From Salvia splendens (taxonomy: Eukaryota; Streptophyta; Magnoliopsida; Lamiales; Lamiaceae): DNA of 64,000 bases. Below the pieces are notes generated by a model. The model did not search any database. It saw only the letters and a list, made by a program, of their open reading frames with translations, and was not told the origin of the DNA. The stretch covers positions 32,315,883 through 32,379,882 of the forward strand of contig NC_056039.1 in NCBI RefSeq assembly GCF_004379255.2, read 5' to 3'. Below, in pieces: positions 6,812-61,995 of the stretch; within the stretch, counting starts at the first letter, position 1, and each line of letters opens with the position of its first letter. Made by a program: the position numbers and the translations under genes.

Positions 6812-8838
6812 GACCATCCACAACGCGTCTCGCGCCGGGCTCGCGTCTCGTCTCGGAGAGACGAGACCCCCGCGAGACGCATTGCAGCGTCCATCTCGTC
6901 TCCAGCTCGCGACCGTCTCGCCGCGTAGCTCGTCTCGGCGAGACACGAGACGAGATGTCTCGCCACGCGCTAGGGACACATGGCACGTCCCCATGCGTGC
7001 GTGACGCCCACTCGCTGGCCCGCGAGTGGGCGTCGTCACTGATGACGCAATAATTCATTTTTTTTTAAAAAAAATCGATTTTTAATAAAAATTTTTTTTT
7101 TTTTCAAACGGTAATATTACCGTTAAATATTTATTTTCATTTTTTAAATTTTTAATTTTTTTACTCTATAAATAATTCTATTCCATACTCATTTCAAACA
7201 CAAACACACATCTATTCCTCTCAAATCCTCTCTATCATTCCAATTTCCATCTTCAATCAACTCAAACAAATGGATCCTTTTGAGCAAATGCGCCAATTAA
7301 TGGAACAATCACTCGAAGAAGATCGACGACGAGAGGCGGAGGAAGCCGCACCACCCCCACGACGCTCCCGGAAGTACATCAATCGGAACCGGGAGGAAGC
7401 CGCCGCACGGTTAGTACGCGACTACTTCTGCGATAACCCGATTTGGGGAGATACCTATTTCCGTCGCCGTTTCCGCATGCGGAAACCGCTATTTCTCCAC
7501 ATAGCGAATACTTTGGCGGCCAGGGAGGAGTTCTTCCGAGAAGGGTTCGACGCGGTCGGTCGTCCCAGCCACACGACGCTGCAGAAATGTACTGCAGCCA
7601 TCCGGCAGCTTGCGACTGGACAAACGACCGACATATTCGACGAATACCTGCACATCGGAGACAGCACTGGGCGCTTGTGCTTGCTCAACTTCTGCAGAGG
7701 CGTCCGGGCAGCCTTCAGTGACGAATTTCTCCGGAGGCCAACCACGGAGGATTGTCAGTTCCTCCTCAACCTGCACGAACAAGTGCACGGATTCCCCGGG
7801 ATGCTTGGCAGTGTCGATTGCATGCACTGGCAATGGAAGAATTGCCCGGTGGCTTGGAGGGGTTCCTACACGAGCGGCCACAAAGGCACCCACCCAACCG
7901 TTGTACTCGAGGCCGTTGCCGACTACCGACTTTGGATCTGGCACGCGTACTTCGGGGTCCCTGGCTCGAACAACGACGTAAACGTGCTCCAACAGTCCGA
8001 CCTCTTTACCGAAGTTTTGGATGGTAAAGCGCCGGCCATCAACTTCGTCGCCAACAACCGGCGGTATAAAATGGGGTACTATCTCGCCGACGGCATCTAC
8101 CCGAAGTGGCCGACCTTCGTGAAGACGTGCGGCAGGCCAGCGAACCCAAAGCAGGCTCTTTTTGCGCAGAAGCAGGAGGCTGCGCGCAAGGATGTGGAGA
8201 GGGCGTTCGGGGTTCTCCAAGCGCGCTTCAACATCATCAAAGCCCCGGCTCGTTCGTGGTTCATGGAGAGCATGGTCGACATCATGTATACGTGCATAAT
8301 CTTGCACAACATGATTGTCCGAGACGAAGGACCCGATGCCGGAAATTGGTTCGACCCTGAATCCCCCGGAAGCTCAACCGCAAGTAGTCCGCCGCGAAGT
8401 GGAGCGCATCCATCTATACAAGAACGGTTGGCTATTCGGGCAAGGACACGCGACTCTAGCGCCCACACCCAACTCCAAGAGGATCTAATTGAGCACATTT
8501 GGGAAAACTTTGGCGGAGAAGATTAAATTATGTCATTTTTATTTTTTTAGAATTTTAATTATGTCTTCGTTTTTTTTAATGTTAAGTTGTAATATTGTTT
8601 TAATTTTAATAAAGTGTGTTTGTTTAAATTGAATTGGGTTTTAAAAAAAATTATAAATTAAATTGAATGAATAGTAATTAAGAGACGGTATAGAGACGGT
8701 TAAGAGACGGAGCGTTGCAGGTTCCGTCTCTTAGTTAAGAGATGGAGGAAAAAAGGACAGTGGGGCCCTCAAATAGTGCTCAAATAGTAGTTAAGAGACG
8801 GTGTAAGAGACGGTATAGAGACAGCGTTGTGGATGGCC
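6812..8838 (+). mobile_element. Complete PIF/Harbinger element carrying transposase only
   Basis: The ends are inverted copies: GACCATCCACAACGC at the left and the complement of GGCCATCCACAACGC at the right (14 of 15 match). Both are flanked by TTA (6809-6811 and 8839-8841), the target duplication typical of PIF/Harbinger. The element is 2027 bp. The left subterminal zone (about 6826-6965) is GC-rich and full of CGAGACG-like motifs in both orientations. It contains one long gene, the transposase at 7270-8526. No Myb/SANT-like ORF1 is present, although autonomous plant PIF/Pong elements usually carry one. Confidence 0.93.
7270..8526 (+). CDS. PIF/Harbinger DDE transposase, open reading frame intact
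   Basis: 418 codons, single exon, with a DDE_4/plant transposon protein domain. Candidate catalytic residues are D183 (in GSVDCMHWQWKNCP), D236 (in PGSNNDVNVL) and E310 (in DVERAFGVLQ). The N-terminal part has the RRRFRM and QKCTAAIRQLA stretches shared with the broken copy at 24933-26017. The ATG at 7270 follows a TATA-like CTATAAATA near 7166, about 100 bp upstream, so the gene has its own plausible promoter. No stop or frameshift is present, which suggests recent activity or selection. Known family members cut and paste DNA, usually together with a Myb-like ORF1 protein. Whether this copy is expressed or active is not visible. Confidence 0.93.
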   Translation: MDPFEQMRQLMEQSLEEDRRREAEEAAPPPRRSRKYINRNREEAAARLVRDYFCDNPIWGDTYFRRRFRMRKPLFLHIANTLAAREEFFREGFDAVGRPSHTTLQKCTAAIRQLATGQTTDIFDEYLHIGDSTGRLCLLNFCRGVRAAFSDEFLRRPTTEDCQFLLNLHEQVHGFPGMLGSVDCMHWQWKNCPVAWRGSYTSGHKGTHPTVVLEAVADYRLWIWHAYFGVPGSNNDVNVLQQSDLFTEVLDGKAPAINFVANNRRYKMGYYLADGIYPKWPTFVKTCGRPANPKQALFAQKQEAARKDVERAFGVLQARFNIIKAPARSWFMESMVDIMYTCIILHNMIVRDEGPDAGNWFDPESPGSSTASSPPRSGAHPSIQERLAIRARTRDSSAHTQLQEDLIEHIWENFGGED

Positions 8839-11972: not shown

Positions 11973-12236
11973 TGATACGAGCATTATTAGTTAGAGAAAT
12001 TATGATTTGCATATCTTTTCCATATTTTTGTTTTCTTGTTCATTAAGTTAGTTATTAACATTATAAATAAGAGTTATTGTAATCATGTGAGAAATCTATC
12101 AAGAATATCAATATTATCGTTCATTCTATTCTCCAAGTGAGAAAACCCATCTTGTACGGGCATTTGCCCGCGACAGACATTTATCGATCGCCAATCTACG
12201 GACGCCGATCAGCCCGATAGGAGGTTTATCCTATCA
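11973..12236 (+). mobile_element. Solo LTR (264 bp)
   Basis: Begins TGATACGAGC and ends CCTATCA, with near-identical 5-bp flanks CAGTG (11968-11972) and CATTG (12237-12241), differing at one base. It contains a promoter-like TTATAAATAAG. The same LTR family recurs at 39112-39387. No internal retrotransposon sequence is present, so it is read as a solo LTR left by recombination. Confidence 0.72.
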
Positions 12237-24588: not shown

Positions 24589-24932
24589 CAACTTACTCAT
24601 ATTTAGATCATCTCCAGTAAGACTGGACGTCAAATAGCCCTCACATAGCCTTCACACTGCCACATCATCAGCACTACAATTCTCCTGCCACATCAGCTTG
24701 CCACATCAACTGGACATCAAATAGCCCTCACATAGCCTTCACACTACCTATCCACATCACTAATAACAATTATATAATTTAATTTACACTCGTATCAACA
24801 TACGGAATTTAATTTACGAGACAAATACGGAAAATTCGAATAATAATATTAAAATTTTAAAAATACAATAATTTTAAAAAAATACATTTAAAAAAATTAC
24901 ATTTAAAAAAATTACATAAACTTACATAAAAA

Positions 24933-26017
24933 CTAACGCCTTGCAATCCTCCGCGCCCACAACTCTTCAACTAAATCCTTTTGGAGTCGAATATGAGCCT
25001 CCGTCTGACGCATGTCGGCATGTGCTTGGAGGAGGGCTTCTTCATCGTCGCCGACTCCTGCCGCGTCGCAAAGTAGGCCTTCTTCGCATCTGATGCGCAC
25101 CGGATCGTCTTCACAAAGACGGGCCACCTAGGGTATATCCCATCCGCCAAGTAGTAGCCCATATCATGCTGGTTGCCGTTGGCGACAAAACTGATGGCCG
25201 GACCGACGCCCTGGCACTGCTTGTTGAAAAGGGGCGACGAGTTGAGGACGTTTAGGTCGTTGTTCGAACCGGCTATCCCAAAATACGCATGCTAAATCCA
25301 CAACCGGTAATCAGCTACGGCCTCGAGGATCATCGTGGGATTTTTTCCCTTGTAGCCGGTCGTGTAAAACCCCTTCCAAGCAGCGGGACAGTTCTTCCAC
25401 TCCCAATGCATACAATCTATGCTGCCTAACATTCCCGGGAACCCATGCTGATCCCCGTGCATCCGCAGCAGATTCCGGCAATCTTCGGGGGTAGGCTTTC
25501 GGAGATACTGATCACCGAATACTTCGATCACGCCCTGACAGAAATACTTCATACATTCGATGGCAGTCGTCTCACCGATGTGGAGGTATTCGTCCCACAT
25601 GTCTGCCGCGGTGCCGTAGGCCAACTGCCTGATTGCCGCAGTGCACTTTTGAATAGGGGTGTGGCCGGGTCTGCCAGCCGCATCGTGCCTGAAGCGGAAA
25701 TACAGATATCGCTGCTCCAAAGCGTTAACAATACGCATAAACAAGTCCCGCCTCATCCTAAAACGACGCCTGAAATGGTTGGCGTTAAAACGCGGCTCCT
25801 CTGTGAAGTAATCTGTGAACAGGCGCTGATGTGCAGCTTCATGATCACGATCAACCACTTGTCGACGGTGGACAACTGGTCGTGGGCGAGGTGTCGTCGG
25901 CTGCATATAATTCTGCATCCATCGATCAACCTCACGGCTCGTATAGGCATCTAGCTCTTCGTTCATCATACGCTCGTACTCATCCGCATCCCCACCACTA
26001 CCACCGGCATTACTCAT
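24933..26017 (-). pseudogene. PIF/Harbinger transposase pseudogene
   Basis: Translation begins at the ATG at 26017 and runs 241 codons with clear transposase features (RRRFRM, QKCTAAIRQLA, GFPGMLGSIDCMH with the first catalytic aspartate). A TAG then replaces a codon that is TGG (tryptophan) in the intact copy at 7270-8526. Beyond it the frame continues with the GSNNDLNVL region holding the second aspartate, and MGYYLADGIYPRWP. Near 25060 the sequence is broken: the segment with the catalytic glutamate (VERAFGVLQ in the intact copy) is missing, and a displaced C-terminal tail ending near 24933 follows. It therefore cannot make active enzyme. Confidence 0.92.
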
Positions 26018-26125
26018 TTCTTAAATTGATCTTGAACAGAAAGTAAGGTAGAGAGAGAGTACTCGTTAAAACAAGTGGTGCGAATGAAAATGACGTTCAA
26101 AGCGCGTATATATAGTGTTTTCAAA
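26018..26125 (-). promoter_or_regulatory. Transposon promoter/leader shared with an ORF1 element
   Basis: From the ATG at 26017 upward, the block 26061-26120, including ACTCGTTAAAACAAGTGGTG and a TATATATA box (about 26107-26114), matches 40647-40706 with few differences. It lies at nearly the same distance from the start codon (44 versus 43 bases) although the two genes encode different proteins. Confidence 0.85.
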
Positions 26126-26436
26126 AGAAAAAAAAATAAAAAATAAAATCTGACGCCGGTTTGACGCCGATCCGGGACCCACAATGGCGCCGTGAGGATC
26201 GGCGCCGTGAGGATCGGCGTCGGAACCTGCGTCATCGCGCGAATCGGCATGGCCACGCCGATTTCGCCGACGCCGGTTCCAATGGTTCGGCGTCAGAACC
26301 GGCGTCGCGATTTTGACGCCGTTACTGGAGATGCTCTTATAGACATTTCTTTACTTATTCTATCATTCTCTAGTCTATTCTTTCAAGGTGAGGTGGAGAG
26401 AGCATTTAGCGGAGGGTGGAGGGTGTTTGTTGCTAA

Positions 26437-29030
26437 TGTAACATCCTAAAAATGAGTTTAGACGGAATTCCCTATTCCAATTAGAAAAATTATGAATTAG
26501 AAATTTTCGACAAATAATTTGATGTCGAAGATGATAATAATTAAAGTTATATATTTTAGACTATGACTGTATAGACATTAAGTGATTGAATGGAGATATA
26601 AATTAAGATGGTGAGAATTTACATTAATATTCCATCAATTAGTAGATTATATTTTTGATAGATTTCTAAGAAATGTCCGAAAACTTACTAAAGTACTATA
26701 CTATTTTTATGTCATAAATGAAAAATCAGTACTGATTATATAATAGGAATGTAATATTTGTGTGTGTACGTAGGTATCATATATTTATTAGAGTGAACTA
26801 CACAAATGGTCCCTGAACTATGCGTTTTGCACGCAAATGGTACCTAAACTTTAAAAATATCGCGGATAGTCTCTTAACTTAGGTGTAATTACATTTTGAT
26901 ACTTTTTCACTATTCATCATAATTTTGCACCAAAAATGCCCCCAAGGCATGAATGACATTTTGGGACTTGCATATCTAGGTACTAGATTTGATATTTTCT
27001 TTATCTTTCTCTCCAGTACTAAATATGATATTTTCTTGTAGTTTGAGTAACTAAAATGATATTATTCTCTTTACTTTTTTCAATCACTTTATGTCATATC
27101 TTCTTTCTCTCTTTCTTAAAAATTTTAGGAAGTAAAAAACTAAAATAAAAAAATACACTATGAAATTCTTAAATATGGAATAAAATTTAAAATTATAAAT
27201 TTAATTATCAAAATAAAATTTTTAGCTAAATATAATTTGATTATGGTTCAATAATTTTTTAAATATTAAATATTATGATTAATTGAAAATTAAGAATTTA
27301 GTTTTAGTTAAAAAATTAATTTTTAATATTAAAAAATAATCAAATCGCAATCAAAATGAAATTTTGCTACAAATTATTTTTATAATTAAATTTATAATTT
27401 TGATTTTTATAATTAATATATTTAAGAATTTCATACTATTTTTTATTTTTATTTTTTACTTCCTAAAATTTTAGAGAAAGAGCGAGAAAGAAGATATGAC
27501 ATAAAGTGATTGAAAAAGTGCAGTGAATAATATCATTTTAGATACTCAAATGATAATAAAACATCATATTTAGTACTAGAGAGAAAGATAAAAAAAATAT
27601 CAAATCTAGTACCTAGATATGAAAGTCCAAAAATGACCTTCATGCCTTGGGGGCATTTTTTGTGCAAAATTGTGATGCATAGTGAAAAAGTATAAAAAAT
27701 GTGATTATACCTTAGTTCAGGGACAACTCACAATATTTTTAAAGTTTGGGTATCATTTACGTGCAAAACGCGTAGTTCAGGGACTATTTGCGTAGTTCAC
27801 TCTATTTATTAAAATGATTTTCTAGAAAGTTCGAGAGAAATGAAAGGTCGGAAAGGTGAGATGATTTCTTTCAATATGAATATTCTGGAAGTATTGGAAT
27901 AAATACAAATAAAGATAAGAGAATACATTAAAAAAAATCTAGAGAATTGGACATCTTAATAAACAGCTAGCCATTCTCTCATTTTTTAGGGTGGCTTCGG
28001 TCCCTTCATCTTATAGCATATCAAGGTCTCAAGTATATGATTTGACTAATATATATGGGAATATATTAATCAGTTTAAATTACAAAATTTATGCTCTGCA
28101 AAAATTGGTAAACTAAAAGTAATTATAGAAGTAGTATATTTTAAGTTAGTTCTTAATTTTTTAATTAGGTCTATATAATTGTATATATAATATTATGTGC
28201 TAATCGATGATACAGTATGTGATCTGTATATGTGGCTTATGACGTGAAATATGTGATGATATTAAGAGAGTAGGAGTTTAATCTGTTAAACTGATATGAC
28301 CTGGTGTAAAAGTTTGCTGATGCATTATCGTAGATTATTATTTGAAATAAGTATACTTGACTGTGCTTACGCCCCGTGCTTGAGTGTATTCTGTGGGTAC
28401 AATTGGCAAGCTATAGGACAACAGCGCTGCATTATCTGTGATCACTCGTCTTCTGGATAACCGAAGCGAGGATCGTTTACTAATTGTTATCTGATCTATC
28501 TGATATGCACCCCATGGGTGAGTGGTCTGTACGGAGTCCTCTCGAGGACAAAATCCGCATTTACATCTGATTCTATTTCTGATCTGGTCCGTGATCCTAG
28601 TTTGTAACTAAGCACTTAAGAAGGCTATACGTGTTTGATATGTGAAAAATTATATGCTTACATAAAAAGGATCTTATGTGATGCTAAATGATATATTCTG
28701 ATGCAAGAAGGGTGTGTCTGACATTGTCTGATATGATTCGACATTGTATGATATAAATTGATGTTTGACATTAGCTGTTGATAATTGAGATTATCTACTG
28801 AGGTATTATGAAATTATATGAAATAAGGTGTTAAAAGTTGTTAGATGCTATAATGTTATCTTGTGAAATTAGTCATATGTTAAAATAATATGGCTATGTG
28901 AAGGTGTCTTGGTAGATGAATTAAATCATAAAATAAGCTACAAATTGATTTGTAATTTGCTATAATTTATAGTACTAAAATTGTGGCATTTTCTATTCGG
29001 TCTATCATCGGACGAGTAGGGGATGTTACA
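26437..29030 (+). mobile_element. Solo LTR, Ty3/gypsy-like, with perfect target duplication
   Basis: Begins TGTAACATCC and ends GGATGTTACA, an inverted terminal pair typical of Ty3/gypsy LTRs in plants. It is flanked on both sides by GCTAA (26432-26436 and 29031-29035). A nested MULE-type element (26791-27802 plus its duplication) accounts for 1021 bp, leaving an LTR of about 1573 bp. No internal gag-pol sequence adjoins it, so it is a solo LTR. Confidence 0.88.
26791..27802. mobile_element. MULE-type long inverted-repeat element nested in the solo LTR
   Basis: The ends GAGTGAACTAC and GTAGTTCACTC begin inverted arms several hundred bases long. For example GGGGCATTTTTTGTGCAAAA near 27651 mirrors the region around 26921-26945. 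Both sides carry the 9-bp duplication TATTTATTA (26782-26790 and 27803-27811), the size made by Mutator-like transposases. No gene is inside, so it is non-autonomous. Confidence 0.9.
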
Positions 29031-29108
29031 GCTAAAATAGGCTAGTGGACTGACAACTGTTTTAACACAACATATATACTAACCATGCAATGAAAAGATA
29101 ATGTTTGT

Positions 29109-29770
29109 TTAGGCATAGGTGGTCATGGGACTGGAATGTGATTTGGATCTGACGACATGGCCTTGAACCAAGTTGTTGGCATATACATCATTGGTAAAGA
29201 ATGGATGATTAAGAGCAGCATTTGTTGTGATCCTTTCCGTTGGATCTTGCTTGAGCAAGTTCTGGAAAACAAAACAACCAACAAAATAGATGGAAAATTG
29301 AGTGCATAGCCATCCAGAAAGTAGAACATGTCTATCACTTTTTCCTCAAATTGCTCCTTAGGGAGAAGGAAATCTTCATCAACAAATGGAAAATATCCAA
29401 GTATCCTCTCAGCAAATATGCATCCTACGGGCCACATGTCCACTACATATGTAACCTCACTGCGTTGCTCCTTGAACTCGGGTGCTACATAGCTTGTCTA
29501 CACCTGCATGTGTTAAAATTACATATGTAATGCAATTCTAAAATATTTTATATCAAAAAACATAAACAAGACTATTACCATGTTAGCCCAAGCATAACTT
29601 GAGTAAACGGGCTCCTATCACTGTATCTTGATTTCTCGATTTTACTAGAATGTTTGCGGGTCTTAAGTCGCAATGTACCACTGAGTTAGCATGGAGGCTA
29701 CTGAAGTAGCTAGAAAGAGCGTGTGCACTTTGATATATCTTAATCCACTCGGTCCAGAGGATTCACTAGA
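29109..29770 (-). pseudogene. Protein kinase pseudogene, MAPK/CDK-like
   Basis: Reading the minus strand, 29770-29590 gives a degenerate catalytic-loop region (SVVHCDLRPANILV, where kinases normally have HRDLKP). 29500-29380 gives the activation-segment end and subdomain IX (SYVAPEF then VDMWPVGCIFAE). 29290-29109 gives subdomain XI (LLKQDPTERITTNAALNHPFF) and a stop. GCIFAE and the PTERIT segment fit the CMGC group, probably MAP kinase. The N-terminal lobe is absent, a stop (TAA) follows the first segment, and the HRD arginine is changed. The border with the solo LTR at 29030 is close, so the locus may have been broken by insertion. Confidence 0.7.
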
Positions 29771-31031
29771 TCACAGGGTCTAGGAGATCATGGATCTGTC
29801 AGAATTCGGTTGTTGGACACACTTTTCTTGCTTAAAAACCCAACCCACTATACTATTGGCTAGTATAGGGAAGTAAAAGATCGATCCCACGAGAACGGAT
29901 GTGTTAGCATGCATTAAGAGGCTTTTGGGAGAGTTTGGCTGTTGCCACGCAACAAGTGGGTTGAGAAATTAAACTATTAGACTTAGGAAATCAAAAGCAG
30001 GTTACTCCATCTACTAGACCGAAGAAACAGAAAGAGAACGTAAGCATGCATGGGTAACAGAAAGGATGATTTAACTAAAGAAACGCAACGACTAAGCTAC
30101 TTGACCGGGTAAGTTGGCTTCCTAAAATGGCTAACAAAGCGTGAATATGCAATGGGGACCATTTTCCCGAAAATCCGAAAAGATAAATCTTAACATAATA
30201 ACCATAAAACTTCAATATTAACGAGGCACGTAGTCGAGATAGCGCTCCCGGGACATCTTGCACGTTCACGAGCGTCCAATTCTCGGTGCTGCTGTAGTTG
30301 GACTAACTCCCTCGTCCTCCACTTGTCATCTGGAGTCATCATCTGCTTCCAGTTCTTCCGTGGCTTCTTCCTGTTCTCGTTCTCCTATTAACAATATTAA
30401 AATAGGACGACCCATTTCGATAGTATTGAAGTGAGTTTTGTTATTGACATATATTTCTGTCGCTATTTATATAGATGAGAACAATATATTAGACACACAT
30501 ATAATTGGATGATATGTGATCTCCATAATATTCAGATTGAATTTATGTACTCCATATGATTTACGATATATAATAGCTAATGATTTCGAATTCTATGCCG
30601 TCGAAATATAAATATCATGACAATATTATTGCAATTTGGTGTATACCATAATTGTGTTTAAGTAATTACTTTTTGTATGCAATATATTTTCTTGTTAAAT
30701 AGTAGATGTACGGAAATGATAAGATAATCTAATTACTTACCAAAATATATAAATGAATTATTTAGATAATACTTATTAAGTTGATCATTACGATGTTTCC
30801 ACACTATACAGGAGTATAACTTTGGTTATTTAGATAATATTAAGTTGATCATTACGATATTTTTCTAAACATCAATCGAATACTTGTGGTGTTAGACAAG
30901 TATTTTGTGGGTGCGTTTTGTTTTTCAAGTGGCAGAAGAATAAAAATGTCTAACTTGTTACAAAATTGAAATTTGTGAATATAACTGAATTTTTTTTAAA
31001 TATCAGCAATCATAGAACTATGTTTATGCAT
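29771..31031. other. Intergenic, partly repeat-derived
   Basis: Around 29820-30400 the base composition is higher in GC than its surroundings and includes GATCGATCCCACGAGAACGG, a kind of sequence often found in degraded plant retroelements. On the minus strand 30240-30400 reads as a charged peptide without recognised domain. No gene is claimed. Confidence 0.35.
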
Positions 31032-31285
31032 ACTTCCTTAGTCCATAAAAAATAGACAAAGTTATAAATGGCATAAGTTTTAATGTTTAGTTGGTAAAGT
31101 AAGAGAAATAGAGGGAAAAGACAGTGGAAATAGTGTTAGTGGTTTGTGGAGTTCACATTTAGAATAATGTGTCAAGTTATTATTTGTTTAAAAATTTTCA
31201 TATTTAAAATTGGTCTAATTTTGATGAACACCATAAAATAAAAAAGTAGTCTATTTTTTTTATAGACGGTTGTAGTATGATTTAG
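31032..31285. mobile_element. Stowaway-like MITE
   Basis: ACTTCCTTAGTCCATAAAAA at the left is mirrored by TTTTTTTTATAGACGGTTGTAGT at the right. The arms TAGACAAAGTTATA and GTAGTCTATTTTTT face each other. Ends are degenerate and boundaries approximate. Confidence 0.6.
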
Positions 31286-31604
31286 GTTCATCCAATATTA
31301 TTACGGAAATAAGTAGTACTGTAATCGTTGCAAATGCAAACAATTCATTCAATCACCAAAATTGCTCAATACAATAGATATTTATATATACATAAAAAAT
31401 ATCCAATTTTAAGAAGTAAAATTTCATACTATATGAATAAATATTGATTGTATAAGTGAATACTTATTTCTCGAAAATGTCTACAAGGAATTTTCAAAAT
31501 TTTGTCTCTATATATGTCAAAATTCGTGGCATGCCTATTAAGTTTTCTTGCATTTGAAATTTGAATGTATATGCACTTTGTTATTGATATATGTCAAAAT
31601 TCGT

Positions 31605-31607
<3 letters not shown>

Positions 31608-31659
<52 letters not shown>

Positions 31660-32012
31660 TTGCGTTAAAGACAGAACCATTCTTAAGTGTAGAACCTAGA
31701 ACTCTACATATTTTATTCATTGGATGAGGAAAAAATGACGGTCAAGATTAAAAATCATACATATTAGACTATGTTTTCACGACATTCCGGACTCAACATG
31801 TGAAAAAACTCACATGTTGATGGAAGAATGAATGAAACGAAGAAGAGTCCATGCATGCATTATTTTTTCACTTCTCTGCATTCACCCATTAATAATAGTT
31901 TTGGTTGTAATGGGAAGTTGTTGTGCAAATCAACACGATTGGATTAAAAGATCTAACGACCTCCGTTTGGCATTTGTTCTACGTTTAAGAATGGTTCTAC
32001 CTTGATCACAAT

Positions 32013-32068
<56 letters not shown>
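31608..32068. repeat. Two (TA)n microsatellites bracketing an inverted-repeat insert
   Basis: (TA)n runs occupy 31608-31657 and 32015-32068. The sequence between has facing ends: GACAGAACCATTCTTAAG near 31669 and TTTAAGAATGGTTCTACC near 31985. This looks like a small transposon inserted into one TA microsatellite. Confidence 0.6.
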
Positions 32069-32071
<3 letters not shown>

Positions 32072-33681
32072 TTGTGTCCTTTTCCATTTATTTATACACC
32101 AACTTTCTTGTGATTTTCATAAAAAAATCTGATCAATTTAAACACTATGTCTCTCTATGTTCTAAGTTAAGTATATCAATTCTATTGGCAATTGAAACAT
32201 AAAATGAATATAAAAATATCTCACATCGATGTACACAAAGAGCTTAATCCATTATATAAGTCGCATGTGCCTCTCCTCCTATCACCAATTGGTTTTAGGA
32301 TGGAACCCATGGATTTCTATTACGAATTTAAACATAATGAAACGTTCATGCCTGGTTGAGTTGTGAAGATATGAGATAACGCGTCTCGATTATGTAATAA
32401 AGGTATAGGGTGTCATTTTCATGAATTATTGAGCAATGAAGAATGACCACATTTTAGTGCAACTTAGTTCACTAATATTGGAATTGCTTTATCATTAATA
32501 ATTTCATATCCTTTCTTCATTGTATATAAATATATTATCCAACTAGAAAAGGTATAGTCGTGTGTGTAGATAATGGTGTTAGGTCAGTTTGATTGCCGCA
32601 CTTAAAGAGGGATGAGATAATGAGATTTTTCCCTTTTTGAGGTAAGGATGAGTTGTTTGTAAATAATACAGGTGGTCAATTAAGATGATTTTTGTGTAAG
32701 ATAAAACTAATATCACATTTTTCCACTATGGTATGTTCATGATTTAAAATTTTAGTACTCCTATTTTTTTTGGAGGAAATGAACATCACTCTCCAATAAA
32801 TCATTATATTCGTCGTCGCCTTGGACGTTGCCCATCCGACGTTCTTCACCCCCACCAACCTCGTATCCGAGCATGTCGGTCAAAAATCGGTTACAAATTG
32901 AATAGACACGGACAAAATCGGCATAGTGGTGCATCCAAGGTGAGCAAGAGAGGAAGGTGGAGAAAGAGAGATTGTGAAGGCCAACTAAATCATCTCACCA
33001 AATGTTGAGATTGATAATGGGATATAAGAGTGAAAAGCTACTATAGAGACCGGCTTAGACGTGGGCCGAGTTTGAGTATCGAGCTACGATTAGTGCAGAG
33101 CTGAATAATCGAACAAGCAATTAAAGAAGGAAAATGGGTGTAGTCGAGGCATGTGCAGAAACCGAATTGAACCATAGTATTACCGACATATTTGAATTAA
33201 ATCGCTCAATCTTACCATCCAATAATACTACTTGTCAATTTTTAAAAAAAAACTACAATATACAATCAAATAAAAGGGCATAAAAATGTAACGGTGATAT
33301 TTAATTCAGTAAGCCAAATGCAACAGGAAATTTAATTTTGACTGGAAAAATAAAAGAAAACTCTAATATCAAAATTCATATTTCTTCCATCCCTAGCCAA
33401 TTAAACAGGATGTCACTTTTTCGAACGATTTTTTTGTTTTCTAATAGCTAAATTAAGATATTTATTTTTATATAGTACTATACACTCCATAATTATATAA
33501 AGTTCAAGTACAATTTCAATATTCAACAATCAGTCAAATAAAATTAAACCCACTAATTAAAGACGTATGGTTTAATCTCAAAAACAGTTTGAACATCATC
33601 ATCAACTCAATTAACCCAAACTATTATGAACAAAAAATTAAAAGTTGGATTATGGTTCAAATCAATCAAAATTAACCAGCA
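32069..33681. other. AT-rich intergenic region
   Basis: No gene is recognised. Positions 32220-32400 (with CACATCGATGT and CCAATTGGTTTTAGGATGG) resemble the end of a small LTR element, but neither end nor duplication could be defined. The last part is the 3' flank of the gene at 33682. Confidence 0.4.
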
Positions 33682-34131
33682 CTAACCACTGATTTTCTTC
33701 TCCGCATGAATCGGCGGCAAAGGCGAAGAATTCCGGTCAGTTTTCCGTAGCCGGAAGATAAATACGGCGCCGGAAATCGCCAGCAGCGCGACGCCGGTCA
33801 GCCCGCACACCGCCGTCGCCACCAGCAACCCCAGCCGCACGTGATCTCTCCTTGACTCGTCACGTGCTCTCTCGCCCGCGCGAGCTCCCAGCCACGTGTC
33901 GCTGATGTTCTTCGCCTCCGGCAGCTGCACGGTCGCCGACGACGTCGTTTCGCCGAAGAATGCCATCATTTCCTGCTGCTCGTAGGCGCCGCCGTCTCGC
34001 GGCGGCGGCGCCGACGAGCCCTCCTGGAACTCGAGGCCGTGGTCCGACGGCCGGAGGTCCCGGGCGGCGGAGCGGCCGAGGAGGGCGGATAGGGCCACCG
34101 CGGCGACGAATTGAAGGAGGATTTTGTTCAT
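33682..34131 (-). CDS. Small single-pass membrane protein, unknown function
   Basis: 149 codons, no intron, ATG at 34131. A signal peptide is likely (residues 1-23, ending SAA). The exposed part contains RDLRPSDHGLEFQ, a proline-rich patch and one N-glycosylation sequon (NIS, about residue 75). One strong membrane helix lies at about 104-129, followed by a basic cytoplasmic tail (FRLRKTDR). The layout is that of a type I membrane protein. I have a vague recollection of similar short plant proteins with an RPSDHGL-like motif but cannot name the family. GC content is much higher than in the flanks, consistent with a real gene. No partner or pathway is suggested by the neighbours. Confidence 0.75.
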   Translation of the reverse strand: MNKILLQFVAAVALSALLGRSAARDLRPSDHGLEFQEGSSAPPPRDGGAYEQQEMMAFFGETTSSATVQLPEAKNISDTWLGARAGERARDESRRDHVRLGLLVATAVCGLTGVALLAISGAVFIFRLRKTDRNSSPLPPIHAEKKISG

Positions 34132-34859
34132 TTTTGGGAATTGGATTGGACGATAAAATGAGATGAAATGAGTGATGGGAAATTGGGAGTGTTGATTGTT
34201 TTATTCGGTTTTTCTGTAATATTTTGTGATTATTAACTGCAGTAAATAAATTATAATTATCAGGTTTTGGAAACTGGACTCGTGAATTCTTGTCGGAGTG
34301 GAACAAAATGGGATGAAGACAGAGCAATTATTGCGTGAGTAAATAGCTACACACTATGTGAACGGTGAACCTACTATTTACTTCAATTTAAATTATAAGT
34401 ACAGTAAAAAACCATTAGTTTGGATTAAATTTTGATTTATCACGTTATTATATAAAATTAATGGAAAAATTATAAAGTATATTATTAGAGTATATATGTC
34501 TTTAACTCAATCGATGTTAAACAGATATATTCTTATTATGAAAATTCGGATAAACATATAAATTCAAATTTCGATTGTTATATGACGCATCAAATACGGT
34601 TTCACTCAAATCAAATCCAGTGGTATATCTTTGAACAATTTTAAACTTTATGGTTTTCTAATCGAATTTAAAATTATAAAAAAGACTAGAATTTAATCAA
34701 ATTTTATGATTTTCTTGCTATCTACACATTTAATGAGTGAGTTGTCTATCACTCATTGGTTTGTAGAGTTTAATTTAAAAAGTTTAATTGATTTTTTCTT
34801 CAGTGAATGTAATTGTAACTAATTCTTATAAAATCTATCACCTGCAGCACCTTTTTTAC
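34132..34859. other. Promoter side of the membrane-protein gene, otherwise empty
   Basis: AT-rich DNA upstream of the minus-strand gene at 33682-34131. No additional gene or defined element is seen. Confidence 0.45.
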
Positions 34860-35112
34860 TACCTCCGTCCCTGAAAATTTATCTCATTTTTCCATTTTCG
34901 TCCGTCCCCCAAAATTTGTCTCATTTCACTTTTTACCATTTTTTATAGTGGACTCCATATTTCACTAACTCATTCCTACTCACATTTTATTATAAAACTA
35001 AAATATAAAAGTAGGACCTACAATCCACTAACTTTTTCAACTCACTTTCCATTACATTTCTTAAAACCCGTGACGAATCAAAGTGGGACAAATTTTTGGG
35101 GACGGTGGTGGT
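34860..35112. mobile_element. Stowaway-like MITE
   Basis: Left end CTACCTCCGTCCCTGAAAAT is mirrored by ATTTTTGGGGACGGTGGTGG at the right. Internal arms with AAAATTTGTCTCATTTC and GTGGGACAAATTTTTG face each other. Confidence 0.8.
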
Positions 35113-35878
35113 AAGTTTTAAAAGGAGATGAGCACGGGAATAAAAGTGGGAGTACCTTTTACCTAAAAAAGTATTCCCTCTCGTCCCTTTGCTTGGACTT
35201 TTCTCTCTCGTTTGGCATACTTGCATGTGCAATTCTCATTTGTTTTACCTTTCATGTGAAGGAATACTGTATTTATCATTTCTCTCCAACAATGGTATTT
35301 TAAAGTTAACACTTATTTTATGTTGAGGAAAAGAAAATTGACATGCTCACCAAACATATTGTTATTTATCATATTGTTAGTCATATGTTTTCGCAAACCA
35401 CACTTGCACATCCTCAAGTTGAAGGTCTATATATAGCCTACGTATGATAGATTGTAGTAGTAGTAGTAAATAATTATATCCGTGCTATATTTTTTTTATA
35501 ACTTAAATATTGTTAAGAGCCCATTGGTGTGAAAACAAACAAGTTTGTGACGCTGAATTGGACTTCCGATAGATAAGAGAAAGTCAAATAATCCCATGGG
35601 CTATTCTCCTGGTATATGAATCAAATCTTTATGAAGTGTCATACTATTAATTATATGGATATACACTATGAAATATCACATTTTGTTTCGGTTAAAGTTT
35701 CTAACACTCAATTATAATTACATCTCACATTTTAATCCGGGTAAATTAAATTAGACATTTATTGAGATAGCCCAAGCGGTTAATGGGCTATGATTGGGCT
35801 TTCAACATCCCTTAGTTGGGCTTTTGTACATACTACTTCCCACAAAACTAAAAAAAAATAAAAATCAATACATTCTCC
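35113..35878. other. AT-rich intergenic region
   Basis: No gene is recognised. A minus-strand open frame across 34990-35232 overlaps the MITE and has no domain. Confidence 0.45.
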
Positions 35879-36856
35879 TCAATTGATGTTTGTCAAATCA
35901 GCTCTGACTTTTATCCACGTCAGCACGGTGTCAAAAACCTCCTCCACAAACTCGTTACTCTCCCCGATCAGTTGATGCCACGCGCCGTCGTATACCTTGA
36001 TCGTCTTGTCCTTGCTCGCCGCGGCCTCGTAGAGCCGCCTCGCCCCCTCGGGATCGCAGATCACGTCCTCGCCTCCATGCAGGATCAGCATCGCCACGTC
36101 AACACCCCCACACTCCCTCTTTATACACTCGCAAACACTCAGCAGCTGCTGCGCCGTCGCCGCCGTCGGCCGCCCGCACGTCCTCCTACTCGGGCTCCCC
36201 GCCGCCAGCTCCCTCTTCCACCCCTCCCTGTACGACCGCCTCCCCGGCGGCGGCGTGATCGCGATCCTCCACGCCGGCGCCACGTACGCCGCCGCAGGCA
36301 GCAGTTTCTCCAGCGGCCACACCGGCTTGAACTTTTTAGACACCTCCAGCATGGCCCCGCTGAGGATGAGGCCACGCCAGGGGGCCTGACAGGCCCCCTG
36401 GCGCAGGCAGGCCAGGAGGGCCAGGGCGCCTCCCAGAGACTCCCCATATAGAAAGGCTGGGAGGCCTGGGGGGTGCCTGGCCCTGGCGTCAGCGAAAAAG
36501 CGGAGGCAGTCGTCGAGGAGGGGCTGGATGTCGGTGATGTGGTCGCGGGGGCCGTCAGAGAGGCCATGGCCCTGGAGGTCGAGGGCGCAGACGAAGAGGC
36601 CGGATTTGGCGGCGGCCACGGCGTTGAGCTCGAAAAGCCAGCCGCTCTCGGAGGTGTAGCCGTGGATCATGCCGAGGAAGGCCGCGATGGGGCGGGAGGG
36701 GTCGTTCGGCTGCCATGACTGGGTGAAGATGTTCATGTTTTGGGCGTTGGTGAAGGAGCTCTCTTGGTGGAGGATGTTGTGTTTTTTGTAGAAAGCCTCC
36801 TTTGTGAGGTTGCCGTAGGGGCTCTTCTCATTGGCTTCATGAATTGGATGACTCAT
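35879..36856 (-). CDS. Monoacylglycerol-lipase-like alpha/beta hydrolase
   Basis: 325 codons, no intron, ATG at 36854-36856. The alpha/beta-hydrolase fold is clear: oxyanion-hole segment MIHGYTSESGW (about 63-73), ALDLQGHGLSDG (91-102), nucleophile elbow GESLGG with Ser140, then Asp264 in HGGEDV and His294 in WHQL as the probable remaining triad members. This is the plant MAGL-like family, which includes monoacylglycerol lipases, lysophospholipases and the related caffeoyl-shikimate esterases. The start MSHPIHEANEKSPYGN is typical of the subgroup. The cap region (about 170-240) reads PPPGRRSYREGWKRELA and is less conserved than the core. The exact substrate cannot be inferred. No signal peptide is visible, so a cytosolic or membrane-associated enzyme is expected. 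The GC-rich single exon differs from the AT-rich, intron-rich genes nearby. Confidence 0.88.
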   Translation of the reverse strand: MSHPIHEANEKSPYGNLTKEAFYKKHNILHQESSFTNAQNMNIFTQSWQPNDPSRPIAAFLGMIHGYTSESGWLFELNAVAAAKSGLFVCALDLQGHGLSDGPRDHITDIQPLLDDCLRFFADARARHPPGLPAFLYGESLGGALALLACLRQGACQAPWRGLILSGAMLEVSKKFKPVWPLEKLLPAAAYVAPAWRIAITPPPGRRSYREGWKRELAAGSPSRRTCGRPTAATAQQLLSVCECIKRECGGVDVAMLILHGGEDVICDPEGARRLYEAAASKDKTIKVYDGAWHQLIGESNEFVEEVFDTVLTWIKVRADLTNIN

Positions 36857-37356
36857 TTTTTTCTCTCTCTAGAGTGAAAGGGTGTAGAGTTATTGGCCAA
36901 ACATATAAGGGCTAGGTGCTTTATGATTGGTTGGGAGAGGCTGCCCTCCCAGCTGTATCTACGGTAATGTGAATAAATGAATTTGAATTATTTAGTGTAC
37001 ACTATTAATAAACATGGATCATGGCTAAATCGGCTTATGTTGCACCTTTTTTGTCTTTCGCAATTCAAGTATTGAATTGATTGCATATTTAGAAAATTCA
37101 ATTAAATAATAAAAGGGCTGAAATCGGGCATGAAACATTAATTGTGACTACGATTTCGACTTGAAATGACATGGTTGCGGAGTATGAGAATGTGTTACAA
37201 CGATTTCGAATATGGCGCCAAAAGATAGGCACGTTCAAATAATAGTAGTGACTACACAACCCATTATTCTTTATCCACCTTGTATTATTGTATATCACAT
37301 TGCAAAGTACTTAAAAAGGACAACGTAAAAACATTGAAGAAAATGAAAATAAGCAA
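36857..37356 (-). promoter_or_regulatory. Upstream region of the hydrolase gene
   Basis: AT-rich, with a short CT tract just upstream of the ATG (GAGAGAAAAA when read on minus). No specific control element is identified. Confidence 0.4.
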
Positions 37357-37632
37357 AATTTGTTATATATTCTATATTCAACCTTGCATTTTACTAAACT
37401 AAGTGAACTCATCCCTTAAATAGCCCCACTACACATTTCTTGTGTGTTAATTTGTTATATATTCTATATTCAACCTTGCATTTTACTAAACTAAGTGAAC
37501 TCATCCCTTAAATAGCCCCACTACACATTTCTTGTGTGTTAATTTGTTATATATTCTATATTCAACCTTGCATTTTACTAAACTAAGTGAACTCATCCCT
37601 TAAATAGCCCCACTACACATTTCTTGTGTGTT
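37357..37632. repeat. Three perfect tandem copies of a 92-bp unit
   Basis: Copies start at 37357, 37449 and 37541 and appear identical. Each contains TAAATAGCCCCACTACACAT and ends in TTCTTGTGTGTT. The identity points to a very recent expansion. The unit has no coding potential that I recognise. Confidence 0.95.
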
Positions 37633-38255
37633 ATGAGGATTCATATAGTGGATGCTCTAAATTAGCATAGTAATATATCTCAACTCTTGTTCTATGTATC
37701 TCTTTCAGTCGGCAAATTTAGGATGGACAAGTGAGGGTGGCCGCCCCGCTCAGACACTCAAACCACCAGAATGTCCTCATTTTCTCTAATTAGGATCTGT
37801 CGATAAAAACTATGGCTACCTCTAAATTTGTTCAATTTTTAAAGAGATAACAGAATATCAAATGACCTAATTTTTTGAATTTCTTAAGCACACATTGTGA
37901 AATTTTAAAAAGCCATTCTTTCTCACTCGTTTATTCACTTCAAACTGGAGACTATTTTCACCAAATGAATCCTCCAAAATTATGCCATGGATGCCAATAC
38001 CTCTGCGAACAACTTGTCCAATAGCCAACTAACACGTGTCAGCTACTTGTTCCACGTGAAATTATGCTGCTAGTTAACCAATTCATGTTTCAACTGCAAA
38101 CCACATGAGCTGGTGATCAAACATCAACATCAAAGAATTAATGATATGCCTGAACAGGTAAATTGCTGTTCCATTCCAAAAAGTTTGAACTGCCGCCATA
38201 AATTTTGTAAAGTGAGGTGGTAGTTTATCTCTCATAAAAGTCGCCATTTCCATTA
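37633..38255. other. Intergenic region left of the ORF1 element
   Basis: No gene recognised. A short GC-rich patch near 37715-37790 resembles degraded transposon sequence but could not be delimited. Confidence 0.4.
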
Positions 38256-38528
38256 TAGCATTCACCGTAGAAATAGCCTGGCCATAGCTCAGCCATAACT
38301 TAACAAAAACTCCGCTTGTCATATCAGCAGCACTAACAACTCCTCCTGCCACATCATCAGGACAAACAACTAGACAAGCAATAGCCCAACCATAGCCTAG
38401 CCACAATAAACAAAATTATAAAAATAAATAATTAACAATCACACAAAATACGGAATTAAATGTACGATACAGATACGGAAAAACTCAATAATATTATTAA
38501 AAATTAAAAAATACATTAATAAAAAAAA

Positions 38529-40604
38529 TTACATAAATCTAAAAAAAACTCCTCCTCCACACACGAGCCCCCCGCCTCCGCCACACTCGTCGCCACCGCC
38601 GTTGTCGCCGCTATCCGGGACCCCCAAATCTGCGGCATCTGAGCCCGCATCTGAGCCCCCCACATGTGCCGCGGCGGTGGTTAAATCGACTTGCATACTC
38701 ACGAGCATAGCGTGGAGAAAACTCTTCTCCTCGGGGTCAGTTGTCGCCCTCCATTCAGCTAAGATCTTGTACATCTGAGCTCGCGTTTGTTGACGCGCGA
38801 AGAAGGCGAGCTCAGCTGTCGACCCGCCAACAGGGGGGATGCCGACTGGGCCTCCTGGGAGGCCTGGCGAGCCCGTTGCGCCCGTCTTTGACCAACCGGG
38901 CGAGTGCGGCGAGCAAAAGCGGGAGGATTCGGGAACTCCTGTGCATCCTCGAGGAGGTCGTGGGAACCGCCGCTGCTGCCGCCGCTGTAATCACCGGTAT
39001 AGTTCAGGCGCTGCTTCTTCGGCCAGCCAGCTTCGACACCTGCCCGAAACTTCTCGGAGTCCATCATCACCTTATAGCAGTTCCAGTAGGTGAACTCCTT
39101 GTAAAGATCGGTGATACGAGCATTATTTAGTTAGTTAAATTAAAGATTTACGTATCTTTTCCGCATCTTTGTTTATTTGCGTATCTTTTCCATATATTTG
39201 ATTTCTTGTTAAGTAAGTTAGTTATTAGCATTATAAATAGAAGTTATTGTAATCATTTGACAAATCAATCAAAAATATCAATATTATCGTTCATTCTCTT
39301 CTTCAAGTGAGAAAACCGTCGTGCTCGACGGGCACTCGCCCGCGACAAATATTTATCGATCGCCGATCTACGAACGCCGATCAGCCCTCAATGAAAGCAC
39401 CAGATGTTAAGGACTCAATTCCTCAACGGTGATCGGCGGCTGGCTGCTCGGCGATCAAGATAACTTCCGGCGTCCTGAGATAGGATTAGCAGAGATTCTA
39501 GTTTCGTGCTGTGCGCGGAACTCCTCCGTCGGGCAGCGGTGAACTAGGGTTAGGATACTTCACGGTTTTTTTGTGGGCAAAATAATATTTTCATTCATTG
39601 ATTCCATAAAATGATTACATCATTCCCTATTTATAATACTAAACCCTAACTTACCGAACAAGAAAATAATATATGAAAAGATACTATGAATCAAAAGATA
39701 ACTAAATAAAAGATATGGAAGATATGGCAATGTCTTGTATCAGTCTCGTATCTCCCGGGCACGGGGAAGGCTTTCTCCGCCATCCTCCTGCAGTCTTCGT
39801 TAGTTTGGTCACTGGACTGCATGTGGAGGGCGTTGGTGTACAAGCCCGAAAATCAGGAGACCGCAGCTCTGATTCGGTCCCACCCTTTCCGGCACTCCTC
39901 CCTGCTGCGTGGTCGCCCCTCCGGGCAAAATGTCTTGTAGGCTGCTGCTATTTTAGCCCACAAGTTGACGATCCTCTGATTGTTCGAGGCGAGGGGATCA
40001 TCGAAAACACTCACCCACGCCTTGGACAGCGCGACGTTCTCCGCGTCCGTCCACTTCCTCCGTGTCGGACTGTCGTCACCAGCCGGCTACGACGACTCGT
40101 CGACCACCCTCTTCCCCCTCTTCTTCTTTGGCGCGCCCTGACCCCGCCCTACTCCCCCCGTTTGAACGGGAGTGTCCGCATCCCCGAGATCTATCCCCAA
40201 CTCCTCTAGGTCGAAAGTCTCAATCCCAGTGAATTGCGTCTCCGTTGGGGTCGATGTGTGCGAAGAAGCAGTAACAAAATCAAAACTGGGGCGATAGACG
40301 TTGTCCCCCCCGGCGTCCCCTGCATCCCCGGGTACCCCGGCATCATCTGCATCCCGGGTTCCCACCCCGACATCATCTGCATCCTGGGTTGCATCCCCGG
40401 TACCCCCTGCCCACCCGGCATCGCCGGCACCCCCGGCATCCCCTGCCATCCCGGCGTACCACCCCCGGATGCCATCCCGGGCATCATCTGCTGCCAAGGG
40501 TACATGTTGTAGTACCCGCCCATCGGACCCCATCCACCTCCCACGGGTACCGTGGGAGTTTGAGACCCGCTCGTCCCTGGAGTAGGCTGGTTGTTGTGCT
40601 CCAT
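38529..40604 (-). pseudogene. Harbinger ORF1 (Myb/SANT-like) pseudogene
   Basis: Starts at ATG 40602-40604. The N-terminal part (about the first 100 codons) is rich in Gly, Pro and Met with repeated GMPG-like units. A frameshift occurs near a C7 tract at about 40305. The continuation carries the acidic linker and KKKRGKR basic patch. A TAG at 40087 follows, then the SANT-like domain (RKWTDAENVALSKAWVSV, then NNQRIVNLW). A TGA replaces a codon that would be arginine by a CGA-to-TGA change. The LTR insertion (39112-39742) comes next. Beyond it the frame resumes (EFTYWNCYKVMM) and shifts again near 38840. Plant relatives are often labelled glutathione S-transferase T3-like in databases, a misnomer for these transposon-derived proteins. 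In active systems ORF1 helps the transposase bind DNA. Confidence 0.85.
39112..39742. mobile_element. Inverted pair of related LTRs inserted in ORF1
   Basis: The plus strand starts TGATACGAGC and follows the solo LTR at 11973 until about 39387. The minus strand starts TGATACAAGA at 39742 and runs to CTTAACA at 39405. The two LTRs share TATAAATAG-centred promoter regions and GTAATCATTT but point toward each other. Between them lies TCTGGTGCTTTCATTGAG (minus strand), typical of the region just inside plant LTRs. No target duplication is seen. Confidence 0.65.
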
Positions 40605-40715
40605 TTCGCGTTGTTGCTCTTGTACATAAATTAAGATAGAGAGAATACTCGTTAAAACAAGTGGTGCAAATGAAAATGACGTGCAAATCGTGTATATATA
40701 GTGTTTCGAAAATTA
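40605..40715 (-). promoter_or_regulatory. ORF1 promoter/leader matching that of a transposase element
   Basis: Block 40647-40706, including ACTCGTTAAAACAAGTGGTG and a TATATATA box (40693-40700), matches 26061-26120. The position relative to the start codon is conserved to within one base. Confidence 0.85.
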
Positions 40716-40932
40716 AATAAAAGAAAATCACTGGCCGATCACTCGCCGATCGGGAGCCTGCAATGGCGGCCAGTTGATCGGCGAGCGCATCGGCCAGCGC
40801 TCGGGAATCGGCGTGCGCTCGCCGTTTTTCTCGCCGATTTGGCGCTCACCGGCTGCAATGGTTCGGCGAGCAGACCAGCGAGCGCCAGGGATCGGCTAGC
40901 CGGTCCGCTCGCCCCCATTATGGATGCTCTTA

Positions 40933-51836: not shown

Positions 51837-52636
51837 GAGCATCCACTACGCGTCTCGCGCGCGGCTCGCGTTCCATCCTGGAGGGACGGTTCCGCCGCGG
51901 GACGCGTTGCAACGTTCGTCTCGTACCGAGCCCGTCCCCAGCCCGTCCCGTAGCCCGTAGCCGCGAGACAAGGGATGCGCCGTCCCGACACGCGCCCCCG
52001 ATGCATGCGTGACGCCCACTCGCTGGCCCGCGAGTCGGCGTCGTCACGGATGACGCAATAATTCGTTTTTTTTTAATTCGAATTTTAATAAAAAATTTTA
52101 TTTTTCAAACGGTAATGTTACCGTTAATTTTTTATTTTCTTTTTTTAAATTTTTTTTTGATTTATTTACTCTATAAATAATCATATTTCATACTCATTTC
52201 ACACACAAACACACATCTATTTCTCTCAAATCCTCTCTATAACCACTCCGATTTCATCTTAAATCAACTCAAACAAATGGATCCTTTTGAGCAAATGCGT
52301 CAATTAATGGAACAATCACTTGAAGAAGATCGACGCCGACAGGCGGAGGAAGCCGCGCCGCCTCCACTTTATTTTTTTAGGATTCTAATTATGTCCATTT
52401 TCTATTTTTTTGAATTTTAATGTTGTTTTAATTTTAATAAAGTGTGTTTGTTTTAATTGAATTGGGTTGAAAAAAAAAGAAATTTAATGAATAGTAATTT
52501 AAGGGACGGTTAAGGGACGGAGCGTTGCAGGTTTCGTCCATTAGTTAAGGGATGGAGGAATAAAGTACAGTGGGGCCCTCAAATAGTAGTTTAAGGGACG
52601 GTGGAGGAACGGTGGGGGACAGCGTAGTGGATGCTC
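51837..52636 (+). mobile_element. Deletion derivative of the 6812-8838 PIF/Harbinger family
   Basis: Inverted ends GAGCATCCACTACGC are identical at both sides. The flanks are TTA (51834-51836) and CTA (52637-52639), so one duplication has mutated. The left and right parts align closely with the element at 6812-8838, but about 1.2 kb of transposase coding sequence is missing. The junction is near 52368, where CCGCCTCCA runs directly into the 3' untranslated CTTTATTTTTTTAGG. Confidence 0.92.
52277..52420 (+). pseudogene. Truncated transposase start within the deletion derivative
   Basis: The first 30 codons match the intact transposase (MDPFEQMRQLMEQSLEEDRR onward). The frame then enters former 3' UTR and stops at 52418. 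It keeps the start codon and leader but no domain. Confidence 0.85.
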
Positions 52637-61992: not shown

Positions 61993-61995
61993 TTA

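Follow-up and report, generated by a model that had tools for sequence, protein, structure and literature searches.

In Salvia splendens, the transposase (TPase) gene and the Myb/SANT-like ORF1 gene of Harbinger transposons are carried by two separate multi-copy families, each with one gene between shared flanks, and most full-length copies examined lie between identical 3-bp flanks. We consider it probable that these families make up a two-component PIF/Harbinger system, in which TPase-only and ORF1-only elements have their TIRs, subterminal region, promoter and distal 3' end in common. An earlier note had arrived at a bipartite transposon from two elements in the window, the 64,000-nt stretch of DNA analysed here, having read one of them (E2) as encoding only transposase and the other (E3) only ORF1. 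These one-gene contents were upheld, and both copies are broken. Three further gene-bearing Harbinger elements, E1, E4 and E5, which that finding of the note left out, are also present, and the features of the window are as follows.

6812..8838, plus strand: E1, TPase-only element with TTA flanks at both ends; intact 418-aa transposase, ORF 7270-8526
24606..26336, minus strand: E2, TPase-only Harbinger element with TTA flanks left and right; broken copy
24606..24938, minus strand: E2 3' flank and TIR, homologous to the E3 3' flank
25292..26017, minus strand: N-terminal portion of the E2 transposase, 241 aa, PF04827 (ORF list and profile match)
26018..26141, minus strand: E2 leader and promoter, common to ORF1-only elements; TATATATA box, and ACTCGTTAAAACAAGTGGTGC on the plus strand
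26142..26336, minus strand: E2 5' subterminal region and TIR; GAGCATCTCCAGTAA on the gene strand
38256..40929, minus strand: E3, ORF1-only Harbinger element with TTA flanks left and right
39107..39753, no strand assigned: insertion of about 650 bp breaking E3 ORF1; boundaries set by eye against the uninterrupted copy L010
40206-40604, minus strand: ORF1 frame at the E3 start codon (ORF list)
40605..40727, minus strand: E3 leader and promoter, homologous to those of E2
51837..52636, no strand assigned: gene-less, internally deleted E1-type derivative with flanks TTA and CTA
60172..61992, plus strand: E4, ORF1-only element with TTA flanks at both ends; ORF broken
61996..~63600, plus strand: E5, ORF1-type element, Myb/SANT-like, ORF 62491-63264; left TIR GGCCATCCGCAATTGGG, right end approximate

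The near-identical 60-base blocks that had been reported just before the two start codons were confirmed: 26061-26120 and 40647-40706 agree at 56 of 60 bases, ungapped, around the TATA box, and lie 44 (E2) and 43 (E3) bases from the ATG of the minus-strand ORFs 25292-26017 and 40206-40604. With up to three mismatches allowed, the 21-mer ACTCGTTAAAACAAGTGGTGC has two sites in the window, one in each element and both exact, a result seen in 0 of 100 shuffles. The 13-mer CAATGGTTCGGCG is also present in both elements but counts only within the longer alignment, since 0.78 matches are expected at up to two mismatches and 22 of 100 shuffles gave at least two. The likeness between E2 and E3 spans both gene flanks, beyond the promoter alone, with z scores of 48.6 for the entire 5' flanks and 20.6 for the 3' flanks (500 dinucleotide shuffles, one partner shuffled), in a test that is lenient, partly through AT-rich stretches, as z scores of 6.6 for E1/E2 (both TPase), 8.2 for E1/E5, 3.8 for E2/E5 and 1.6 for E2/E4 indicate. 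As the observed flank scores were reached by 0 of 500 shuffles, chance was rejected as the source of the match.

Whether the leaders stay matched across the genome was a question raised with the original proposal, and they do: 96 places have the common leader joined to ORF1 and 73 have it joined to the transposase gene, with reversed-pattern controls giving 0, although these counts are blind to a two-gene element whose second gene has no leader. In both gene types the shared leader ends 7-8 bp upstream of the ATG. To the earlier note's question whether TPase-only and ORF1-only copies form distinct multi-copy families, a genome search likewise gave a positive answer; the E2-type and E3-type copies compared are those most similar to the copies in the window and not a random sample, with the best 40 per DNA search scored. 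Among its best 40 copies the TPase-only family is young (98-99% identity). ORF1 was found inside the aligned TPase element at none of 28 TPase loci, 23 of which align end to end, 21 of these with identical 3-bp flanks (20 TTA/TAA, one TGA). A full-length relative of E2 (L002:1351-3332) is 1982 bp long and encodes a transposase of 439 aa; the E2 gene itself has a TAG nonsense codon and an internal deletion of about 235 bp, with loss of the catalytic Glu. Transposase profiles of the Plant_tran/DDE_Tnp_4 type match E1 at 3.8e-95 and L002 at 3.6e-91, and the DDE-type motifs DCMHW, SNND and RKDVERAF are present. Short TIRs (GAGCATCTCCAGTAA and equivalents) occur in the elements examined and are diverged in E3. 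E3 belongs to an older ORF1-only family, with 86-93% identity among its best 40 copies. Across the 30 rows compared, which stand for 28 distinct loci, no transposase gene lies inside the element, and the 3-bp flanks are identical in 13 of the 16 distinct copies of full length.

While the bipartite idea passed the tests run on it, the pairing of E2 with E3 did not, and we reject it: the E3 5' flank has 70% identity with the TPase reference copy, compared with 92-96% for three copies of another ORF1-only family, which is the partner. This family is young (96-98% identity among its best 40 copies) and absent from the window. Its complete element L062 (2088 bp, TAA on either side) is identical to the TPase reference L002 at 317 of 330 positions of the 5' flank and 244 of 247 of the distal 3' part, and the 5' flanks of two other partner copies are 92.0% and 93.3% identical to the young TPase family. 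Two other ORF1-only families reach 71.0% and 64.0% against L002 over the 5' flank. Partnership tracks the ends and not the gene: of the three ORF1 families compared, a single one has ends that match those of the TPase family. There is a second pair in part: the 5' flank of E4, whose ORF1 matches E5 at 9e-13, matches that of a TPase element on C18 (L054:4075 onward), known from its 5' part because the locus end cuts the element. For ORF1, matches to Myb/SANT-like Pfam profiles are weak and below the curated cut-off (E5 2.5e-4, L059 0.028), and the only Pfam match of the partner ORF1 L060 is NAM-associated (0.026); the family alignment A1 backs the weak domain matches. A protein search started from the partner ORF1 found two relatives, and a search of solved structures found no relative for either the transposase or the partner ORF1 protein.

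The earlier note had also asked whether any copy carries both genes. No TIR-bounded element with both was found among the loci examined, namely 28 TPase loci, 28 distinct E3-type loci and three partner ORF1 loci. When 113 ORF1 loci are set against 101 TPase loci, a single pair lies less than 10 kb apart (0.28 expected), and that pair is a broken fusion. An ORF1-type match occurs elsewhere in the stretch at five of the 28 TPase loci. One of these, L007, is that same fusion, with TPase and ORF1-type elements joined tail to tail on C15; at L021 and L028 the TPase and ORF1-type elements have separate TIRs; and at L029 and L033 the ORF1-type matches have 31-35% identity. A composite unit at L021 was rejected, as the two elements there are bounded separately, each by a TIR and TSD of its own.

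The principal alternative is that an ordinary two-gene Harbinger, a rare, unsampled or lost parent, gave rise to both families by deletion, each keeping one gene and the common ends, and supplied the proteins. One-gene derivatives of two-gene parents are ordinary, as the Medicago and Phalaenopsis elements without ORF1 illustrate in the portions of PMC2213677 and PMC6327408 drawn on here, and deletion predicts common ends with differing middles. On the 3' side, likeness between TPase and ORF1 elements is strong only from about 100 bp downstream of the stop, as a deletion joint in the 3' UTR could also produce, and the cluster at C1:31918580, where an E3-type copy has TPase words about 2 kb off on both sides, might likewise fit a two-gene parent. 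However, with a leader reaching to 7-8 bp before both ATGs, ORF1 must have been removed almost exactly, and comparable events would be required in the other lineages. Against it stand also the 28 TPase, 28 E3-type and three partner ORF1 loci without a two-gene copy, the lack of any TPase word within 58 kb of the partner ORF1 loci on C1 (none at five of five), and the 439-codon TPase frame kept in 11 of 28 copies, from which it follows that the TPase-only form is itself recent. We therefore regard descent by deletion as unlikely.

Less probable again is that the ORF1-only elements are passengers, which acquired the ends of an active TPase family and were amplified while supplying no needed protein. 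The partner family does combine the ORF1 of one lineage with TPase-family ends, unlike the other ORF1 families, as end capture would have it, and in none of the three partner ORF1 copies examined does a single frame stay open as far as the expected C terminus. The frame changes late in the gene, as it does in L013 of the E3 family, and an intron may be the cause. Yet the ORF1 families, diverse as they are, have kept a Myb/SANT core. Furthermore, in the Ping/Pong and Harbinger3_DR assays transposition depended on both proteins, according to the part of PMC2836001 used here. Finally, the notion that E2 and E3 match by chance or through recent gene conversion between these two copies alone, whatever their identical 21-mer may suggest, can be dismissed on the 96 and 73 matched leader places and the 0 of 500 shuffles.

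How would a two-component system hold together? The shared promoter suggests that elements of E2 and E3 type would be co-regulated, so that both proteins would be made together; the ORF1 protein would bind the shared ends and recruit transposase, and the protein pair would mobilise both kinds of element in trans. The ends may be kept alike by flank exchange, through gene conversion or through a switch of template during repair, and such exchange would halt at the unrelated coding parts. In the 5' flank, 24 TPase copies and three ORF1 copies show no fixed difference except at the ATG; over ~250 bp at the distal end of the 3' flank, 17 TPase copies and three ORF1 copies show none. Net divergence between the two is at most 0.005 over 5' columns 1-300, about 0 over 3' columns 151-350 and 0.25 in the first 50 columns past the stop; the low-complexity stretch of 49-114 bp at the proximal side of the 3' flank gives no clear sign of whether it follows the gene or the partner. 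A 12-bp deletion is present in four of 24 TPase and one of three ORF1 copies but is no proof of exchange, because its site lies, by eye, between short repeats and the event can recur. More tentatively, S. splendens could harbour a multipartite transposon of mutually dependent one-gene families that draw on one exchanging pool of ends and promoters; the arrangement would go back to an ancient split and have persisted in several lineages, and the one-piece autonomous element would be gone.

As in plant Pong, Ping and PIF, the Salvia elements have a PF04827 transposase with D-D-E motifs, a Myb/SANT-like ORF1, TTA/TAA duplications, short TIRs and internally deleted derivatives. In contrast, the Salvia genes sit on separate elements with the same ends, whereas the autonomous elements described in the consulted parts of PMC2836001, PMC2213677 and PMC6327408 have two genes, in agreement with the earlier note's statement that known plant PIF/Pong elements hold both. 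MtPH-E of Medicago truncatula likewise bears transposase without ORF1, but it is a low-copy family with two TPase elements, and the portion of PMC2213677 at hand reports no ORF1-only partner. PePIF1 remnants in Phalaenopsis are also reduced to one gene, but stand beside 66 two-gene elements (PMC6327408, in part); in Salvia none was found among the loci examined, and the leader is near-exactly joined to both genes. In teleost fish, TPase and Myb-like genes are partners and four elements carry signs of inter-gene recombination, but each element has two genes and the gene trees are largely congruent, as far as the available part of PMC9179366 describes them. A division of the Harbinger genes over two element families was not found described in the titles and abstract openings of the papers listed in the literature searches.

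Harbinger transposition is described as needing two proteins from one element. In multipartite viruses, the genes of one replicating system are spread over separate parts with common terminal signals; the Salvia system is a DNA transposon and not a virus, and the likeness is one of logic alone. If our reading is true, separately travelling genes with matched ends would be the transposon counterpart of such viruses, and would offer a test case for the cohesion of cooperating selfish elements, for copy-number balance and for the matching of ends. The annotation of TPase-only and ORF1-only copies, now easily dismissed as dead derivatives, would change as well.

By TIR, TSD, transposase (TPase) and the Myb/SANT-like gene ORF1, the elements considered here are PIF/Harbinger elements. 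Those of the window are:

6812-8838: E1, TPase-only element, 418-aa frame intact, TTA at both sides
24606-26336: E2, TPase-only element, TTA at both sides
38256-40929: E3, ORF1-only element, TTA at both sides
60172-61992: E4, gene-bearing Harbinger element with ORF1
from 61996, right end undefined (to ~63600): E5, gene-bearing Harbinger element of ORF1 type

The earlier note proposed that E2 and E3, with a common promoter and leader, are the two parts of a bipartite transposon. Its description of E2 as TPase-only and E3 as ORF1-only is borne out, as is the near-identity of their promoter stretch (56/60 bases match around the TATA box); against 500 dinucleotide shuffles, the aligned flanks of the two elements reach z 48.6 (5') and z 20.6 (3'). 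Both copies are damaged, E2 by a nonsense codon and the absence of ~235 bp, catalytic Glu included, and E3 by an insertion of ~650 bp. This insertion (39107-39753) has inverted arms and an 87% relative at 12005-12215. Over the extent read, E1, E4 and E5 carry a single gene apiece. E1 and E4 have common flanks on both sides of their differing genes (z 15.0 and 10.7, to be read against values of up to z 8.2 for other family pairs in the 5' flank); an 85-bp stretch at the stop codon is 83.5% identical between them. At the protein level, E1 and the E2-family TPase are 52% identical. An internally deleted E1-type derivative with no gene lies at 51837-52636, 78-81% identical to the E1 ends, while E4 and E5 abut (60172-63600), a single TTA at 61993-61995 being common to both. 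The window also holds a large inverted repeat (26782-27811; arms of 186 and 116 nt, 84-90%), perhaps a foldback or MITE-type element, and a 92-base unit in three exact head-to-tail copies (37357-37633).

Genome-wide, TPase-only and ORF1-only elements form separate multi-copy families, as the proposal required. The best 40 of 5468 candidates scored for the E2-type TPase family are 98-99% identical, and the best 40 of 4923 for the E3-type ORF1 family 86-93%, E2 and E3 themselves excluded. A 24-base TPase word is found in 28/28 TPase loci read and at 1377 places in the genome (691+686), a count that may take in related TPase families, as the word spans a conserved catalytic motif. Among all 28 loci fetched for the E2-type family, the alignment is end-to-end in 23, of which 21 have identical 3-bp flanks; L021, scored as partial, has its own TIRs and TAA at both sides when read. 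A complete element, L002, measures 1982 bp and encodes a 439-aa frame, a length retained in 11/28 copies. In the E3-type sample (30 rows, representing 28 distinct loci since two were fetched twice), identical flanks border 13 of the 16 distinct full-length copies. With partial copies judged over the aligned stretch only, we found no ORF1 inside the aligned element at any of the 28 TPase loci and no TPase inside it in any of the 30 E3-type rows; none of the loci read showed a TIR-bounded copy with both genes. Beyond the element, the 4-6 kb of sequence read includes ORF1-type matches at 5/28 TPase loci (L007, L021, L028, L029, L033) and TPase matches at 4/28 E3-type loci (L010, L011, L012, L054). 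These neighbours have separate TIRs at L021 and L028 and, by eye, at L010 and L011; the TPase element at L054 has its own 5' end. A third ORF1-only family, with the same leader type, is represented by L059:634-2691 (2058 bp, TTA at both sides).

On the two-part model, a young ORF1 family should exist whose ends are those of the young TPase family. One was first met adjoining a TPase copy on contig C15; this partner family scores 96-98% in the best 40 of 2490 candidates, the query copy excluded. Its member L062 is complete (2088 bp, TAA at both sides) and L061 near-complete, with TTA preceding the 5' end and flanks unmatched in the automatic table. The 5' flanks of L062, L061 and a third member, L060, are 96.0%, 93.3% and 92.0% identical to that of L002. 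Without gaps, L062 matches L002 at 317/330 positions, reaching 7-8 bp before the ATG, and in the 3' flank at 304/328, where the first ~100 bp are weak and the distal part matches at 244/247. The L062 5' flank is only 71.0% identical to that of E3 and 64.0% to that of L059, both from other ORF1-only families. The ends therefore follow the partner and not the gene. Towards the end of ORF1, copies of both ORF1 families (L060 and L013) depart from the expected frame, by eye at one shared late position; this may reflect an unrecognised intron rather than damage.

The leaders remain matched across the genome: the same exact leader precedes the ORF1 start at 96 places and the TPase start at 73, and reversed-pattern controls gave 0. 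When these junctions were combined with the scored copies of the E2-type TPase and partner families, the resulting 113 ORF1 and 101 TPase loci included one ORF1-TPase pair within 10 kb, where 0.28 were expected; the second-closest pair is 76 kb apart. The sole close pair (C15:28527781-28529878 and adjoining; L060, L007) is a tail-to-tail fusion in which the last three bases of the ORF1 element are missing, as are ~120 bases of the TPase copy where the two meet and 31 at the TPase outer end. On contig C1, where the complete TPase-word list has 91 places, no word lies within 58 kb of any of the five partner ORF1 loci; the word misses some TPase copies and is absent near 1/6 C1 junction copies. 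One of the two E3-type loci on C1 has TPase words ~2 kb off on both sides. Clustering of TPase words at 2-5 kb spacing is seen on C1 at 31691274-31695361 and 31916656-31921580; in the second cluster the words surround a copy of the E3-type ORF1, a layout that may represent either a two-gene arrangement or nested insertions.

The ends of the two young families behave as one pool. In the 5' flank, fixed differences between 24 TPase and three ORF1 copies are confined to the final 7 columns of the alignment, at the ATG; the ORF1 rows are clipped there, and the bases do differ in the ungapped comparison of L062 with L002. The 3' junction is less exact: 17 TPase and three ORF1 copies show 24 fixed differences, seven of them at the clipped edge, all within the first 103 columns and none farther. 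Copies incomplete at the relevant end were left out (4/28 TPase loci for 5', 11/28 for 3'). Net TPase/ORF1 divergence in 50-column windows after the stop is 0.25, 0.05, 0.035 and then ~0, and in the 5' tree, built on short sequence with modest support, the ORF1 copies are not a clade. Because divergence drops away from the genes, we infer that repair-associated exchange among elements probably keeps the ends alike. The pattern also fits a recent split that shortly preceded the expansion of both families.

A second, partly read pair may exist. Over 320 bp, including a nearly identical palindromic block, E4 is 74.7% identical in its 5' flank to a TPase element on contig C18 (L054:4075 onward), which was read in its 5' part.

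These Salvia splendens elements do not share the architecture of described autonomous PIF/Harbinger elements. Medicago and Phalaenopsis also have elements without ORF1, but there they form a low-copy family or are remnants alongside two-gene elements; paired single-gene families were not found in the literature searched, which excluded most subscription journals. According to PMC2836001, transposition of Ping/Pong and Harbinger3_DR requires both the ORF1 protein and the transposase, the former binding TIRs and aiding nuclear entry of the latter. Since the two genes have the same promoter and lie within the same ends, either protein would be able to act on both elements.
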